A DNA stretch of 64,000 bases from Bacteroidota bacterium (GTDB lineage Bacteria > Bacteroidota > Ignavibacteria > Ignavibacteriales > Ignavibacteriaceae), in assembly GCA_020161395.1 (NCBI GenBank), contig JAIUOE010000003.1, positions 310,001 through 374,000 on the forward strand, written 5' to 3'. Of the stretch, positions 10,549 to 51,521 are shown piece by piece. A program made the translations under genes and the position numbers. Position 1 is the first letter of the stretch. Each line of letters begins with the position of its first letter. The notes below the pieces were generated by a model that ran no database searches, was not told the origin of the DNA, and was given only the letters and a program-made list of their open reading frames with translations.

Positions 10549-10590
10549 GAAAAAGCCGTTTTTCAGAGGGGTAACTGAAAAGCGGCTTTT
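10549..10590 (-). terminator. Riboswitch expression-platform terminator
   Basis: On the minus strand AAAAGCCGCTTTTCAG (10575-10590) can pair with CTGAAAAACGGCTTTT (10551-10566) around an 8-nt loop, followed by T-rich sequence. It sits between the TPP aptamer and the receptor start codon, as expected for transcription attenuation when TPP is bound. Confidence 0.85.
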
Positions 10591-10593
10591 AAT

Positions 10594-10668
10594 TTGTTCC
10601 CTACGCCGGAATTACCCGGATCAGGTTCAAGGGTTTGATCTCAGCCCGTTCAGGGCACCCCTACATTC
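10594..10668 (-). promoter_or_regulatory. TPP riboswitch aptamer (THI box)
   Basis: The minus strand holds the conserved THI-box segments in order: GGGGTGCCC, then GGGCTGAGATCAAACCC, then ACCTGATCCGGGTAAT and CCGGCGTAGGGA. The CTGAGA and ACCTGATC...GCGTAGGGA blocks are the pyrimidine- and pyrophosphate-sensing parts of the TPP aptamer. It lies about 67 nt upstream of the TonB receptor, with a terminator hairpin in between, so high TPP should switch the operon off. Only about 38 nt separate it from the stop of the upstream transglycosylase gene, so the promoter must be in or next to that gene's end. Confidence 0.95.
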
Positions 10669-10706
10669 AACTTGCGTTGACAAACAATATATTCAGAACA
10701 ATAGAA

Positions 10707-47251: not shown

Positions 47252-47806
47252 TCAGATCATTTCACGCAACAGTTCCTGACGGGGTTGCGGAATCACAATT
47301 TTATTAACCAGCAAACCTTTTTCCTGTATTACCTGAGCACCGGCATCAACTGCTGCCTGCACAGCCGCCACTTCACCTGTGATGGTGCAAAACGCTTTGC
47401 CACCCAGTGCCATTGCGAGACGAATCTCGATCAGTCTCACCTTCGCAGATTTTACTGCAGCATCAGCGGCTTCAATCAGGGAGGCGACCGAAAAACTTTC
47501 GAGTATTCCGAGTGCCTGCAGCAAATCAACATTTGAATGACCTGCGAGTGCGGGAAAAACATCGGGATGGACATTCGGTATAATGAAGTAGTCTATAACT
47601 CCGAATCCTATTGTGTCAATCGCTGTCTCAACTGATGATCTTACCGCAGCCACATCCCCGCCGATAATGCTCATGTATTTTCCTGAACAGATCGTGCGCG
47701 AGATGACGAGCTCAACATCAGCAGTTTTCAGCATGATATCTGATGCGTGCATCCCTGAGGCAATACTGCTTAATTCTATTAGTCCTAACGAATTTTTCTT
47801 GATCAT
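47252..47806 (-). CDS. pduT: Tandem-domain microcompartment shell protein PduT-like
   Basis: 184 residues forming two BMC domains (about 5-90 and 96-180), each with an A-D-x-A-V-K-S-A or L-K-T-A-D-V-E-L helix and a G-G-D-V-A-A-V or T-G-E-V-A-A-V turn. The first domain has S-R-T-I-C-S-G-K-Y, matching the Cys of PduT that holds a 4Fe-4S cluster at the trimer pore. Length and order match Salmonella PduT closely. It forms a pseudohexameric trimer in the shell and passes electrons across it. It is 7 nt downstream of pduS, which encodes its partner. Confidence 0.9.
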   Translation of the reverse strand: MIKKNSLGLIELSSIASGMHASDIMLKTADVELVISRTICSGKYMSIIGGDVAAVRSSVETAIDTIGFGVIDYFIIPNVHPDVFPALAGHSNVDLLQALGILESFSVASLIEAADAAVKSAKVRLIEIRLAMALGGKAFCTITGEVAAVQAAVDAGAQVIQEKGLLVNKIVIPQPRQELLREMI

Positions 47807-47813
47807 GGTTCTT

Positions 47814-49130
47814 CTAATTGTTAATAATTCTTATAAAATCGTTGTTTACATCTACCACAGTACCAGAAATGGAGGCATGGATGTTTGATCCGAGTTTTCC
47901 TTCCGGAATCTGCGCCAACAAGTCCCCTTTTGCCACTCTGTCCCGCAATCCGACAACGGGAAGTGATGCATCACCCACAGCCTGTTTAAGTTTTATTTTC
48001 ACTTCCTTCGGCTGGTGATTCACATTAATAAACGGGGTATCGGCTGCAAGATCCTGCACCTTGAGTTTCTTCATCAGCATCTTCAGAGGTACTCTTCTTC
48101 CTTCTTTCATCGGATGCACTTTAACGGGGTGCTTCTGCACATATTTTACCCCCTCAATCCGCATGTTTCGCTTCGACTGATCGCATGCTTCCTTGGGGAA
48201 AAGTTCTTCAGGACATGCATAAAGAGTACACAATCCACAAGAACAACAGAGCTCAGCCATTTGATTCCAGTAACCCGCTCCCGAGGAAGTGAAGCCAAGC
48301 GACCTCATCACCTTGTGCGGCTGAACATCATAACCCAACAGGTATCTCGGACAAAATTCCGTGCAGTAGCTGCACTGGTCACATGCTGATTTTCCTATTC
48401 TGTGCCAGCTCGATTCAGGCTGACTCATCCTGAACACGAGGTGGTGCTTTTTTGGTAAAACGATGAAACCGCCCGTTGTTTTGGTTACGGGTTCATCAAG
48501 ATTGTCCATCAGTTTTCCCATCATCAATCCGCCGTTAAATACTGCGTAATCACTCTCGCTGCTCCCTCCTGCAAGCTCTATCACTTCCCTTGCAGATGTG
48601 CCAACAGGGACAAAGAAACTCGATGGTTTTTTAACCGCACCCGCTACACAGATAAACTTTTCCGTAACGGGTTTCTCTTCGGCGGCATGCTTAACATTCA
48701 TCAGGGTCTCTACATTGTTGACCACACAACCGACATTCAAAGGGATTCCACCTGCCGGGATCAGTCTTCCCGTTGCTGTGTAAACCAGCTCGTATTCATC
48801 TCCCGAGGGGTAAAAGTCGCCGAGTTCGGTAATCTCAATCGGGTGATTTCCGATTTTTGATTTTACAGCCTCAATGGCAGCGGCATTTTTCGATTTGATG
48901 CCAAAATACCCTTTTTTTGCTCCCGTGGCTTTGATCATAAGTGCCATCCCCTCAATCATTTCCTCTGCCTTCAACAGCATCAGTTCATAATCTTTGTGGA
49001 GAAGGGGTTCACATTCGGCACCGTTTGCCAGTACAAATTCCACTTTTGAACCGGATTTCACATGTGTCGGAAATCCGGCACCGCCCGCACCAACAACTCC
49101 GGCATTTTTTATCAGACTCGATAAATCCAT
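47814..49130 (-). CDS. pduS: PduS-like RnfC-family electron-transfer protein
   Basis: About 438 residues from the ATG at 49128-49130 (M-D-L-S-S-L-I-K-N-A-G), two nt after the ALDH stop; the frame extends 14 codons further upstream but this start gives the normal PduS beginning. The FMN-binding part has G-V-V-G-A-G-G-A-G-F-P-T-H-V and N-G-A-E-C-E-P-L. An SLBB domain follows. Two ferredoxin clusters lie in C-D-Q-C-S-Y-C-T-E-F-C-P and C-C-S-C-G-L-C-T-L-Y-A-C-P. The C-terminus is a barrel-sandwich domain. PduS reduces cobalamin or supplies electrons in propanediol-type compartments. Confidence 0.9.
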   Translation of the reverse strand: MDLSSLIKNAGVVGAGGAGFPTHVKSGSKVEFVLANGAECEPLLHKDYELMLLKAEEMIEGMALMIKATGAKKGYFGIKSKNAAAIEAVKSKIGNHPIEITELGDFYPSGDEYELVYTATGRLIPAGGIPLNVGCVVNNVETLMNVKHAAEEKPVTEKFICVAGAVKKPSSFFVPVGTSAREVIELAGGSSESDYAVFNGGLMMGKLMDNLDEPVTKTTGGFIVLPKKHHLVFRMSQPESSWHRIGKSACDQCSYCTEFCPRYLLGYDVQPHKVMRSLGFTSSGAGYWNQMAELCCSCGLCTLYACPEELFPKEACDQSKRNMRIEGVKYVQKHPVKVHPMKEGRRVPLKMLMKKLKVQDLAADTPFINVNHQPKEVKIKLKQAVGDASLPVVGLRDRVAKGDLLAQIPEGKLGSNIHASISGTVVDVNNDFIRIINN

Positions 49131-49131
49131 C

Positions 49132-50697
49132 TTATTTGTTTTCTGTAAATGTTCTGAAAAATGTTTTAACAAGGTTTATTGCACCATTAAATCTTACCGG
49201 GATTGAATCTCCATAAAGAAGTTCCAATCCTCCTTTTAGTCCGTCATAAACCTTTTTCCCGTGAGGATACCACCACATGTTCCTTTTCACACCAGGCAGA
49301 ATGTCATCAACCACACACCTTGGCTGTGTCATGGCTTCGAGACCTATAGATCCGTGGGTTCTTCCATAACCCGATTCCTTGAATCCGCCCCAGGGGCTTT
49401 CCGCGAGTCCGTGAGACATCAGATGGTCGTTAATGGTTACGGTACCTGCTTCCAACCGAGAGGCAAGTGCATGCCCCTTCCTGCGGTCGGTTGTCCAAAC
49501 GGAAGCAGTAAGACCAAGATTTGAATCATTGGCGAGTGCAACTGCCTCATCGTATGTCGAAAATTTCTGTATCCCGAGCAGGGGTCCGAAAGTCTCCTCC
49601 TGCATCATAATCATTTCACCTGATACATTTTCAACCAGATAAGGAGTATGGAACTGACCTTTTGAGACATCACCTTTCACAGATCCGAGAGGTGTGGCTG
49701 TTCCCCCTTTTGAAATTGCATTTTCAAGGTGGGATTCAACTGTTTTCAACTGATTCACGGTTGTCATCGCACCAATTTCAACATCGAAAGAAGTGCCGGG
49801 TCCCTGCCGAAGTGCCGCTCCCTGTCTTTTTAGTTCATCCACGAACTTTGTGTAAATTTTTTCGTGAACATAGATTCGTTCAACACCTGCACAAGACTGT
49901 CCGGAGTTACTCAATCCCGCCCAAAGTGCACCCGCAGCAGCGCGGTATATATCGGCGTCTTCAAGAACTATCATTGCATCATTTCCGCCAAGCTCAAGGG
50001 AGATTTGAAGGAGCTTTTCGGAAGCCTTTTTCATCAGCTTTTTGCCAACAGGGACGGAACCCGTGAAGAAAAGTTTATCTATCCCCGATTCAATAAATGC
50101 ATCACCGGCTACATTTCCGGGAATATTCAGCAGTCTGAACAAACCTTCCGGCAAACCTGCAGCATCAACCGATTCTTCAATCAGCTTCGCAACTTCCTGT
50201 GTCTGGGATGCGGCTTTAAGAACCACTCCATTCCCTGCTATTAATGCCATCGCCACTTCATGAACGGGAATCCCGAAAGGGTAGTTCCATGGACTGATAA
50301 TCCCGATTACCCCGTAGGGTACACGATCTATATATGAAATTTTGTTGGAGAGAAGGATGTTTCCCGGTTTAAGTCTTTTCCGTTTTAAAATTCTTTTTGC
50401 ATTTTTTGCATAATAGTTAACCGCCAGCACCGATGGCATCACTTCCGTGGAAAGAGCATCAAAGATGGTTTTTCCCGCATCCTTTGCTATGGTTTCCGAG
50501 AATCTGTCAGCATTTGCGGAGATATAATCCCTCATTTTAAGGAGACAATCCCTTCTTTTATCGAAGGAGAATGAACCCCACTTTATCTGAGCTGATTTTG
50601 CTCTCGCTACAGCCTCCTTCAGTTCCTCAACCGTGTTAAGAGGTGTTTCCCCTATTTTTTCTCCTGTTGCAGGATTATAAGAAACGGTAGTGCTCAT
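49132..50697 (-). CDS. NAD(P)-dependent aldehyde dehydrogenase with C-terminal extension
   Basis: 521 residues. Catalytic motifs are L-E-L-G-G-N-D (general base Glu) and N-S-G-Q-S-C-A-G (nucleophile Cys). Cofactor contacts lie in I-S-P-W-N-Y-P-F and F-T-G-S-V-P-V-G, and the substrate end is E-E-T-F-G-P-L-L-G. The last about 50 residues (from M-W-W-Y-P-H-G-K-K) form a tail of mixed hydrophobic helices found in some long ALDH relatives. It oxidises an aldehyde to an acid. It is not the CoA-acylating PduP type by its motifs. It overlaps the SDR stop/start by 4 nt and pduS follows, so it is in that operon. Confidence 0.88.
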   Translation of the reverse strand: MSTTVSYNPATGEKIGETPLNTVEELKEAVARAKSAQIKWGSFSFDKRRDCLLKMRDYISANADRFSETIAKDAGKTIFDALSTEVMPSVLAVNYYAKNAKRILKRKRLKPGNILLSNKISYIDRVPYGVIGIISPWNYPFGIPVHEVAMALIAGNGVVLKAASQTQEVAKLIEESVDAAGLPEGLFRLLNIPGNVAGDAFIESGIDKLFFTGSVPVGKKLMKKASEKLLQISLELGGNDAMIVLEDADIYRAAAGALWAGLSNSGQSCAGVERIYVHEKIYTKFVDELKRQGAALRQGPGTSFDVEIGAMTTVNQLKTVESHLENAISKGGTATPLGSVKGDVSKGQFHTPYLVENVSGEMIMMQEETFGPLLGIQKFSTYDEAVALANDSNLGLTASVWTTDRRKGHALASRLEAGTVTINDHLMSHGLAESPWGGFKESGYGRTHGSIGLEAMTQPRCVVDDILPGVKRNMWWYPHGKKVYDGLKGGLELLYGDSIPVRFNGAINLVKTFFRTFTENK

Positions 50698-51521
50698 TTT
50701 TCTCTCCCTTTAAAGGTGTTCATGCTGTCTGTGACTTTGAGGAATCGAAGAGTCCACTGGAACCATGAGTCGGGCATCAGCCTCATTCTCGGCGTAAGAT
50801 GAACTGTATATGGTCGCTTGGGTGCATTCCTCCCTTTTTTTATTGCCGATTCCACAATTGCCCTGGCTATTACATCATGGCTCTTCAACAACGGTACAAT
50901 CAATCCTCCGGGAAAAGGAATTTTTGCCCCCTCAAACATTCCCGTCCTTATATATGAAGGATGGATCGATGAAAATTTGACTCCCTTCTTTCCAAGGTTC
51001 TGAGCCTCAAATCGAAGTGATTCCGTCAGTCCCCATACAGCCCATTTTGTGGCTGCATACATTGCAAGCCCCGGCACGCCGATTGTTCCCGCGGCGGATG
51101 AAATATTAACCACATGTCCCCTGTCGTTCTCATACATCGCGGGAAGAAAAGCCTTCGTCGTGTATATAAAACTTGTGAGGTTCACATCTATTGTCTTTTC
51201 CCACTCTTCATCGGGTCTCTCATGAAAGTAGCCGCTTCTTACAAAACCCGCATTGTTCACGAGAATATCAACACTTCCCATCTCCTTAAAAGCGGTTTCA
51301 GCCAGAGCATAAACACGAATTTTATCACAAACATCACATTCGTGGTAAAAGACTTTCCCCTTCCCCTCGAGTTCCTTCTTTGCATTCTCTATTGAGGCGG
51401 GGTTCAGATCCCAGATGGTCACCGTTACACCTTCGGCAAGAAGTCTTTTTACGGTAGCCAGGCCAATACCCATGGCACCACCCGTAACTACGGCAGTAGC
51501 TCTCGATAACTCTTTCATCAA
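50694..51521 (-). CDS. Short-chain dehydrogenase/reductase
   Basis: 275 residues. The Rossmann motif is T-G-G-A-M-G-I-G, followed by N-N-A-G and a catalytic set with S-S-A-A-G-T and Y-A-A-T-K. It lacks an N-terminal signal. Family members reduce ketones or aldehydes with NAD(P)H; the ATGA overlap with the aldehyde dehydrogenase suggests sequential redox on the same compound. The last third is a helical tail with R-P-Y-T-V-H-L-T-P-R-M. The 92-nt gap to the Rrf2 gene makes this the probable start of the SDR-ALDH-pduS-pduT unit. Confidence 0.88.
   Translation of the reverse strand: MMKELSRATAVVTGGAMGIGLATVKRLLAEGVTVTIWDLNPASIENAKKELEGKGKVFYHECDVCDKIRVYALAETAFKEMGSVDILVNNAGFVRSGYFHERPDEEWEKTIDVNLTSFIYTTKAFLPAMYENDRGHVVNISSAAGTIGVPGLAMYAATKWAVWGLTESLRFEAQNLGKKGVKFSSIHPSYIRTGMFEGAKIPFPGGLIVPLLKSHDVIARAIVESAIKKGRNAPKRPYTVHLTPRMRLMPDSWFQWTLRFLKVTDSMNTFKGREK

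Follow-up and report, generated by a model that had tools for sequence, protein, structure and literature searches.

A PduS-PduT pair alone in the window

The window analysed here, a stretch of 64,000 nucleotides spanning 310-374 kb of contig C3 in the 4.07-Mb genome of a bacterium of the Ignavibacteriaceae, carries adjacent genes for a PduS-like flavoprotein and a PduT-like shell protein of the bacterial microcompartment (BMC) type. The genes are transcribed from the minus strand in the order SDR, aldehyde dehydrogenase (ALDH), PduS and PduT (Table 1), with a 4-nt overlap between SDR and ALDH, 1 nt between ALDH and PduS, and 7 nt between PduS and PduT. As a first-pass annotation of this DNA had stated, the pair stands without other shell genes in the window, where no further gene with PF00936 or PF03319 was detected. 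Comparison with related genomes supports, at the level of sequence, the reading of the pair as a satellite of a FRAG-type microcompartment of Ignavibacteria, a type whose genes are dispersed.

Table 1 Coordinates of the genes discussed. Plain numbers are window positions; other positions are preceded by their contig or locus.
Gene product	Position	Strand	Domains and remarks
PduT-like tandem-domain (BMC-T) shell protein, 184 aa	47252..47806	-	PF00936 twice
PduS-like flavoprotein, 438 aa from likely ATG	47814..49130	-	PF01512, PF10531, PF13534, PF13375
Non-acylating ALDH-superfamily enzyme	49132..50697	-	PF00171; co-operonic with PduS in own genus and G027
SDR-family oxidoreductase	50694..51518	-	PF00106; co-operonic with PduS in own genus, G027 and G005 (G005 without ALDH)
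Tailed second BMC-H, linker and C-terminal domain	L008:9209-9871 (C2 of source genome)		
Acylating-type ALDH (core ALDH)	C13:38984-40558		PF00171

The closest solved structures of PduT are PduT-type proteins, and in the alignment to 3nwg and 3pac its pore Cys40, within RTICSGKY, coincides with the Cys of KTICPGK in 3pac. This residue is Cys in all 19 aligned homologues, in agreement with the earlier claim that the pore Cys is kept. Both the tandem BMC domains and the Cys that would ligate the predicted cluster are therefore seen in the sequence. Because the protein scored 130.4 bits against the equivalog profile TIGR02526 and did not pass its cut-off of 250.3, PduT-like is a fair name for it. 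PduS contains the four domains characteristic of PduS (Table 1), and its closest solved structure is RnfC. Its Cys residues 264, 267, 270, 274, 309, 312, 315 and 320 are kept in 21 of 21 homologues, so both ferredoxin sites are retained, as had been claimed; C310 is kept in 19 of the 21. PduS is predicted to bind flavin mononucleotide (FMN) and two [4Fe-4S] clusters. The PduS frame is open from 49172, but the DNA reads ...AAA TAA G ATG GAT...; since an ATG follows the ALDH TAA after one G, the start most likely lies at 49130, one base past the ALDH stop.

The PduS-PduT pair is a module of its own. We compared 97 genomes, the source genome counted in, and read 21 loci round PduS, 21 round the BMC-P pair and 21 round the BMC-H pair. 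Distances between PduS and PduT are 7-59 nt in 18 of the PduS loci and 167 and 542 nt in one locus each, and the contig ends in the remaining one; the other neighbours vary between the loci. PduS matches were found in 67 of the 97 genomes, in five of which the sole match is a second type (42-47% identity), while first-type proteins show 57-82% identity, not counting that of the nearest relative, G003 (99%). With four or more BMC domains per genome taken as a proxy for PduT, 65 genomes had both, two PduS only, none the BMC domains only and 30 neither. Moreover, PduS was found in none of the 19 genomes without BMC-P.

Shell genes dispersed among core genes

Searches of the source genome with PF00936 returned two BMC-H genes on C2 and the window PduT, and nothing further; searches with PF03319 returned three BMC-P genes, two of them on C7 and the third on C8. 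The shell genes thus occupy four separate places (C2, C3, C7 and C8), and the pair sits alone because the other organelle genes are scattered among housekeeping operons. Three BMC-P genes, as here, is also the exact number in 52 of the 78 BMC-P-bearing genomes. The third BMC-P gene of the source genome (C8:76407-76661, in L010) is close to dprA. These findings answer the genome-wide check for BMC-H and BMC-P that the first-pass annotation had proposed: other shell genes exist, and its refuting case of a genome devoid of them does not apply. A complete Pdu locus with its own pduS and pduT, which that annotation had named as an observation against its reading, does not occur elsewhere: the genome has one PduS match, four BMC domains in total, and no second pduS or pduT. 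Its suggestion of a satellite locus belonging to a distant microcompartment is supported by the BMC-H, BMC-P and acylating-type ALDH genes elsewhere in the genome and by the absence of PduS from all genomes without BMC-P. The FRAG type, named in 2021, was described as having genes in up to six places and a BMC-P triplet, and as occurring in Ignavibacteriae, with its function left open in the text of that report; a few FRAGs were said there to have an ALDH nearby (Sutter et al. 2021, PMC8217296).

In 21 of 21 loci, the BMC-P pair is flanked by deoB and a sigma-70 gene, all on one strand, and rpoA and L17 are found upstream in all 19 loci covering them. The gap between BMC-P and the sigma-70 gene measures -4 to 27 nt in 20 loci and 99 nt in one; that between deoB and BMC-P, 53 to 686 nt, has room for a promoter. 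A small PIN-domain-like gene is located between deoB and BMC-P in 10 of the 21 loci (for example L081:10142-10531). The BMC-H pair of the source genome precedes ybbR and the genes for thymidylate kinase and a CtpA-type protease, and in relatives RelA/SpoT and ruvX lie ahead of it (each in 18 of 21 loci); two BMC-H genes are present at all 21 BMC-H loci. Because the shell genes lie among core genes, gene order by itself suggests that shell expression may be tied to growth and not to a substrate.

The first BMC-H of the source genome scores 138.5 against the EutM cut-off of 133. A study of a limonene enrichment has reported an EutM-type protein of a Melioribacteraceae bacterium and inferred ethanolamine use (PMC12583861); since our own BMC-H1 passes the EutM cut-off, that protein may be a shell protein of the present type. 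In seven relatives (G006, G050, G070, G080, G088, G091 and G092), PduL is encoded on contigs with BMC genes a few kb away, and these contigs apparently represent a second, clustered compartment type.

An acylating-type ALDH with a candidate cargo tag

The source genome has five PF00171 genes. Only one of them lies in the window and it is of a non-acylating type, consistent with the earlier statement that the window lacks a CoA-acylating ALDH; the acylating-type gene is on C13, and we refer to its product as the core ALDH. When the PF00171 genes of a chosen set of 13 genomes were compared, a type of ~530 aa with low scores was present in eight of eight organelle genomes and in none of the five others; G096, which has no BMC-P, has a low-scoring PF00171 protein of 432 aa. 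Against TIGR02518, the profile of acetylating acetaldehyde dehydrogenase, the core ALDH scored 615.9 bits, just under the cut-off of 620.1, and its motif LCSSEQ is invariant in 11 of 11 proteins. Identity is 65-86% outside G003 (98%), three extra matches at 47-49% being left out. Relatives of the core ALDH were taken from 80 named loci among 373 matches, whose labels are mostly Ignavibacteria, Ignavibacteriaceae and Melioribacteraceae, some reading only Bacteroidetes or Chlorobiota.

The core ALDH follows BMC-P closely across the 97 genomes: 70 have both, eight BMC-P only, one the ALDH only and 18 neither. In the near-complete subset (completeness at least 90%) the counts, in the same order of both, first only, second only and neither, are 60/6/0/13, the ALDH being present in none of the 13 genomes without BMC-P. 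Since these 13 are spread over eight genera and three families, several losses are likely.

At its end, the core ALDH has a variable linker behind the catalytic core and then, at the C-terminus, the motif GxGISExEIQKIIKEF. Among the 79 named loci on which the motif was counted, 73 have it, five have near-variants and one is without. The AlphaFold model of relative L206 shows a long low-confidence stretch followed by a helix at residues 534-544. We regard the tail as an encapsulation-peptide (EP)-like helix and a candidate cargo tag. In a search of 20 organelle genomes and eight BMC-P-less genomes with a tail profile, the core ALDH was the top hit in 20 of 20 (E 3e-10 to 3e-4), a recovery to be expected from a profile built on the core ALDHs themselves; no other protein stood out in these 28 genomes, the next best hit (0.002) being in a control. 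A regular-expression search for the motif in the loci beyond the core ALDH gave two SufS-side tails and five weak, apparently unrelated matches. Either the core ALDH is the only cargo with such a tag, or other cargo uses other signals. Within flanks of up to 10 kb on each side, the core ALDH has shell genes in only 2 of the 80 named loci, BMC-P in both cases. A LytTR response regulator and a histidine kinase are encoded no more than four genes away from the core ALDH in 41 of 79 loci (L009:16362-19043), and homologues of both occur near the BMC-P pair of the source genome; this may indicate a regulator or mere synteny.

A tailed BMC-H kept in genomes without BMC-P

In 21 of 21 loci, the second BMC-H is extended by a linker and a C-terminal domain of ~45 residues, with the consensus LNVHQLRxLARxxENFPIKGREISKANRxxLLxxF. 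Six of these tails gave no accepted match in Pfam (one, at E 0.03, fell below the cut-off), and against PDB sequences the best match was a 12-residue stretch of fumarase (E 0.12). The domain may resemble the helix-loop-helix domains of the SAP/Rho_N type. All 20 organelle genomes searched have one strong tail match each (E ~1e-20 or better), as do five of the eight BMC-P-less ones; the three BMC-P-less genomes without it have no PF00936 match whatever.

The tailed BMC-H occupies the place ruvX-[BMC-H]-ybbR-tmk in G021, G031, G055, G089 and also G020, which was outside the 28-genome tail search; in G096 the gene is truncated by the end of the contig (loci L326-L331 for these genomes). Its BMC domain reaches 41-70 Pfam bits in the BMC-P-less genomes. 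G020, G021 and G055 also retain an untailed BMC-H, diverged in G021 and G055, and in G031 and G089 the tailed protein is the sole BMC match. The diverged untailed genes are at L328:10671-10952 (G055, 42.7 Pfam bits) and L326:8948-9232 (G021). None of G020, G021, G031, G055 and G089 has a BMC-P, core ALDH or PduS match, and we infer that the rest of the organelle was lost from them rather than never present. Because the tailed BMC-H stays in place in such genomes, the tailed hexamer probably has a role that needs neither the present cargo nor a closed shell.

Neighbouring genes of the pair

The best NCBIfam matches of the window ALDH are non-acylating types, with succinic-semialdehyde dehydrogenase at the top, below its cut-off. 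The order SDR-ALDH-PduS-PduT is shared by G001, G003 and, in another genus, G027. The first-pass annotation had asked whether this order is conserved; it is not general, as the ALDH adjoins PduS in 4 and the SDR in 5 of the 21 PduS loci. Orthologues of the window ALDH were found in 30 of the 97 genomes, and its association with PduS is weak (26 genomes with both, 41 with PduS only, four with the ALDH only and 26 with neither; uncorrected p 0.017, or 0.094 in near-complete genomes). At 14 loci round the window-type ALDH in other genomes, the SDR is adjacent in six, and PduS or PduT in none. Neither PduS nor BMC-P has a match anywhere in three of the genomes with these six SDR-ALDH loci (G020, G089 and G096), the SDR of G089 and G096 being only 38-39% identical; in G020, as in G002 from the genus of the source genome, the window-type ALDH is closely followed by the contig end. 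Correspondingly, the earlier suggestion that the pair works in an unrecognised way with the ALDH and SDR next to it is not borne out, since SDR-ALDH pairs occur in genomes without BMC-P or PduS. The SDR and ALDH beside the pair are an operon fusion found in two of the genera read, and we rejected them as members of the system for their rare adjacency and their distribution.

Bat/MoxR-type and SUF-type genes were found beside the pair, as described in the first-pass annotation. Its further proposal, that Fe-S assembly neighbours match the cluster demand of the pair, fails on conservation: SUF-side genes are common to 2 of the 21 PduS loci and bat to 3, all in the own genus. These genes were rejected as functional partners for this confinement. 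The window also contains a predicted TPP (thiamine pyrophosphate) riboswitch at 10581-10672 on the minus strand (68 bits).

Proposed function and alternatives

Gene identities, co-distribution, the tail motif and the cluster ligands, all read from sequence, point to a probable mechanism in which shell assembly, substrate, encapsulation and electron flow are our proposals: a dispersed FRAG organelle with an EP-tagged acetaldehyde dehydrogenase as its core, PduS oxidising NADH and PduT exporting the electrons. The shell would be composed of the two BMC-H, the three BMC-P and the PduT-like BMC-T. The CoA-acylating acetaldehyde dehydrogenase, encoded apart from the shell genes, would be brought inside by its C-terminal encapsulation helix, and acetaldehyde entering the shell would be oxidised by it with NAD+ to acetyl-CoA and NADH. 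PduS would re-oxidise this NADH through FMN and two [4Fe-4S] clusters, and the pore cluster of PduT would hand the electrons out to a cytosolic acceptor, the two proteins taking over the task of the alcohol dehydrogenase in classical metabolosomes. Citrobacter PduS is reported to be NADH-dependent, to contain FMN and two [4Fe-4S] centres and to interact with PduT (PMC2982820). Outward electron passage via PduS and PduT has been proposed earlier (PMC2982820, PMC6325248), a midpoint potential of +99 mV is on record for the cluster of a PDU PduT (PMC6325248), and PduS/PduT were proposed as the exit in an acetaldehyde dehydrogenase microcompartment lacking an alcohol dehydrogenase gene (PMC8667426).

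Several observations weigh against this mechanism. No source of the aldehyde was found, and DeoC is not co-distributed with the organelle. PduL has no match in the source genome and is present in 7 of the 97 genomes overall. The predicted helix 534-544 of L206 has a pLDDT of about 50. BMC-P occurs without a core ALDH match in G005, G006, G014, G025, G028, G046, G060 and G070; G006, G028, G046 and G070 have just the second-type PduS, and the other four are either assembly gaps or unexplained. Five genomes at least 90% complete (G015, G016, G018, G022 and G033) keep BMC-P and the core ALDH and have no PduS match; therefore, the pair is not obligatory, and NADH must be disposed of otherwise there. 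In addition, the Fisher tests are uncorrected for shared ancestry.

The local genes offer another explanation, namely that SDR, ALDH, PduS and PduT form a redox module of their own in which the pair serves the local ALDH and SDR. The tight operon (4-nt overlap, gaps of 1 and 7 nt) and the recurrence of this order in G001, G003 and G027, the last from another genus, speak for it, but the ALDH and SDR adjoin PduS at only 4 and 5 of 21 loci, the ALDH of 30 genomes is weakly associated with PduS (26/41/4/26), and SDR-ALDH pairs exist without PduS nearby, also in genomes lacking BMC-P and PduS. Moreover, the window-type ALDH of the BMC-P-less G089 and G096 aligns to residue 519 of 521, and therefore no organelle-specific tail was seen. 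We consider such a module very unlikely. Even less credence is due to the idea that the dispersed shell genes are decaying relics that form no closed compartment. The genes are indeed scattered, and of the 19 genomes without BMC-P, 18 also lack the core ALDH and all lack PduS; against decay stand the identities of first-type PduS (57-82%) and core ALDH (65-86%) outside G003, the invariant pore Cys, and the EutM-type shell protein reported from the enrichment (PMC12583861).

Two other explanations accept the compartment and change its chemistry. In a nucleoside or deoxyribose compartment of the SPU kind, DeoB and DeoC would yield acetaldehyde from deoxyribose phosphate for the encapsulated ALDH, a route proposed for SPU by Sutter 2021 (PMC8217296). 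In its favour, deoB precedes the BMC-P pair in 21 of 21 loci, DeoC is encoded in the source genome, and an acetaldehyde dehydrogenase-type enzyme would fit. However, DeoC is missing from 18 of the 60 near-complete genomes that carry the core ALDH and found in 17 of the 19 without that enzyme, the encapsulation motif was not seen at the ends of 16 DeoC proteins, and deoB follows the ribosomal-protein and rpoA genes, so that its adjacency may merely mirror operon history; this origin of the aldehyde thus appears unlikely. DeoC as a dedicated cargo is likewise unsupported, its gene being on C1, away from the shell genes, and not co-distributed with them. Alternatively, PduS and PduT may perform another job in the shell, such as cobalamin reduction or the reduction of an internal enzyme, instead of NADH disposal. 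Citrobacter PduS is a corrin reductase (PMC2982820), and a review leaves direction and role open (PMC6325248); on the other side, neither a B12-dependent nor a glycyl-radical enzyme came to notice next to the genes, although no genome search for them was made, and the single tagged enzyme found belongs to an NADH-making type. We regard such a job as distinctly improbable.

Returning to the FRAG organelle with its acetaldehyde dehydrogenase core, a bolder extension is conceivable, although we think it less likely than not: a constitutive housekeeping microcompartment with one tagged enzyme, PduT as electron vent, and a tailed BMC-H that might have an organelle-independent role as scaffold or tether. 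In any case, the compartment belongs to a known yet unexplained type. FRAG BMCs were previously without an assigned function, and their genes are remote from known enzymes. For the Ignavibacteria form, our analysis adds candidates for the core enzyme and its cargo tag, a likely route by which electrons leave, and a shell protein that unexpectedly stands alone, so that the chemistry of this form can now be tested with purified proteins and cultured relatives. Furthermore, EutM calls in such genomes need not signify ethanolamine use.

Comparison with known microcompartments

The pair resembles the PduS and PduT of PDU and GRM compartments in domain set, gene adjacency and the pore motif C-P/S/A-G-K-Y, and differs from the systems described there in that the genome has no PduL match, the shell genes are scattered and no pdu-type operon surrounds the pair (PMC2982820, PMC6325248). 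The isethionate BMC of Bilophila resembles the organelle proposed here in oxidising acetaldehyde, in having no alcohol dehydrogenase in its locus and in having PduS/PduT as the proposed electron exit, but it is an inducible cluster with a glycyl-radical enzyme (PMC8667426), and none was noticed near the genes here. For the tailed BMC-H, the nearest precedent found is the C-terminally extended BMC-H EutK, which affects organelle positioning in Salmonella (PMC12487888). EutK and PduK share with it a hexamer subunit with an additional C-terminal part; in contrast to them, the present protein has a long linker and a domain of ~45 residues without an accepted Pfam match, and is kept in genomes where BMC-P, the core ALDH and PduS have no match.

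In the literature covered on microcompartments in Ignavibacteria we did not meet the present assignment; the supplement of PMC8217296, outside our scope, may list some. Compared with the FRAG BMCs as described there (PMC8217296), the organelle has the same dispersed shell genes, the BMC-P triplet, the occurrence in Ignavibacteriae and no obvious aldehyde-producing enzyme. Beyond that account, it has an unlinked core ALDH with a putative EP tag, the pduST satellite, the placement of shell genes among core genes and the tailed BMC-H.

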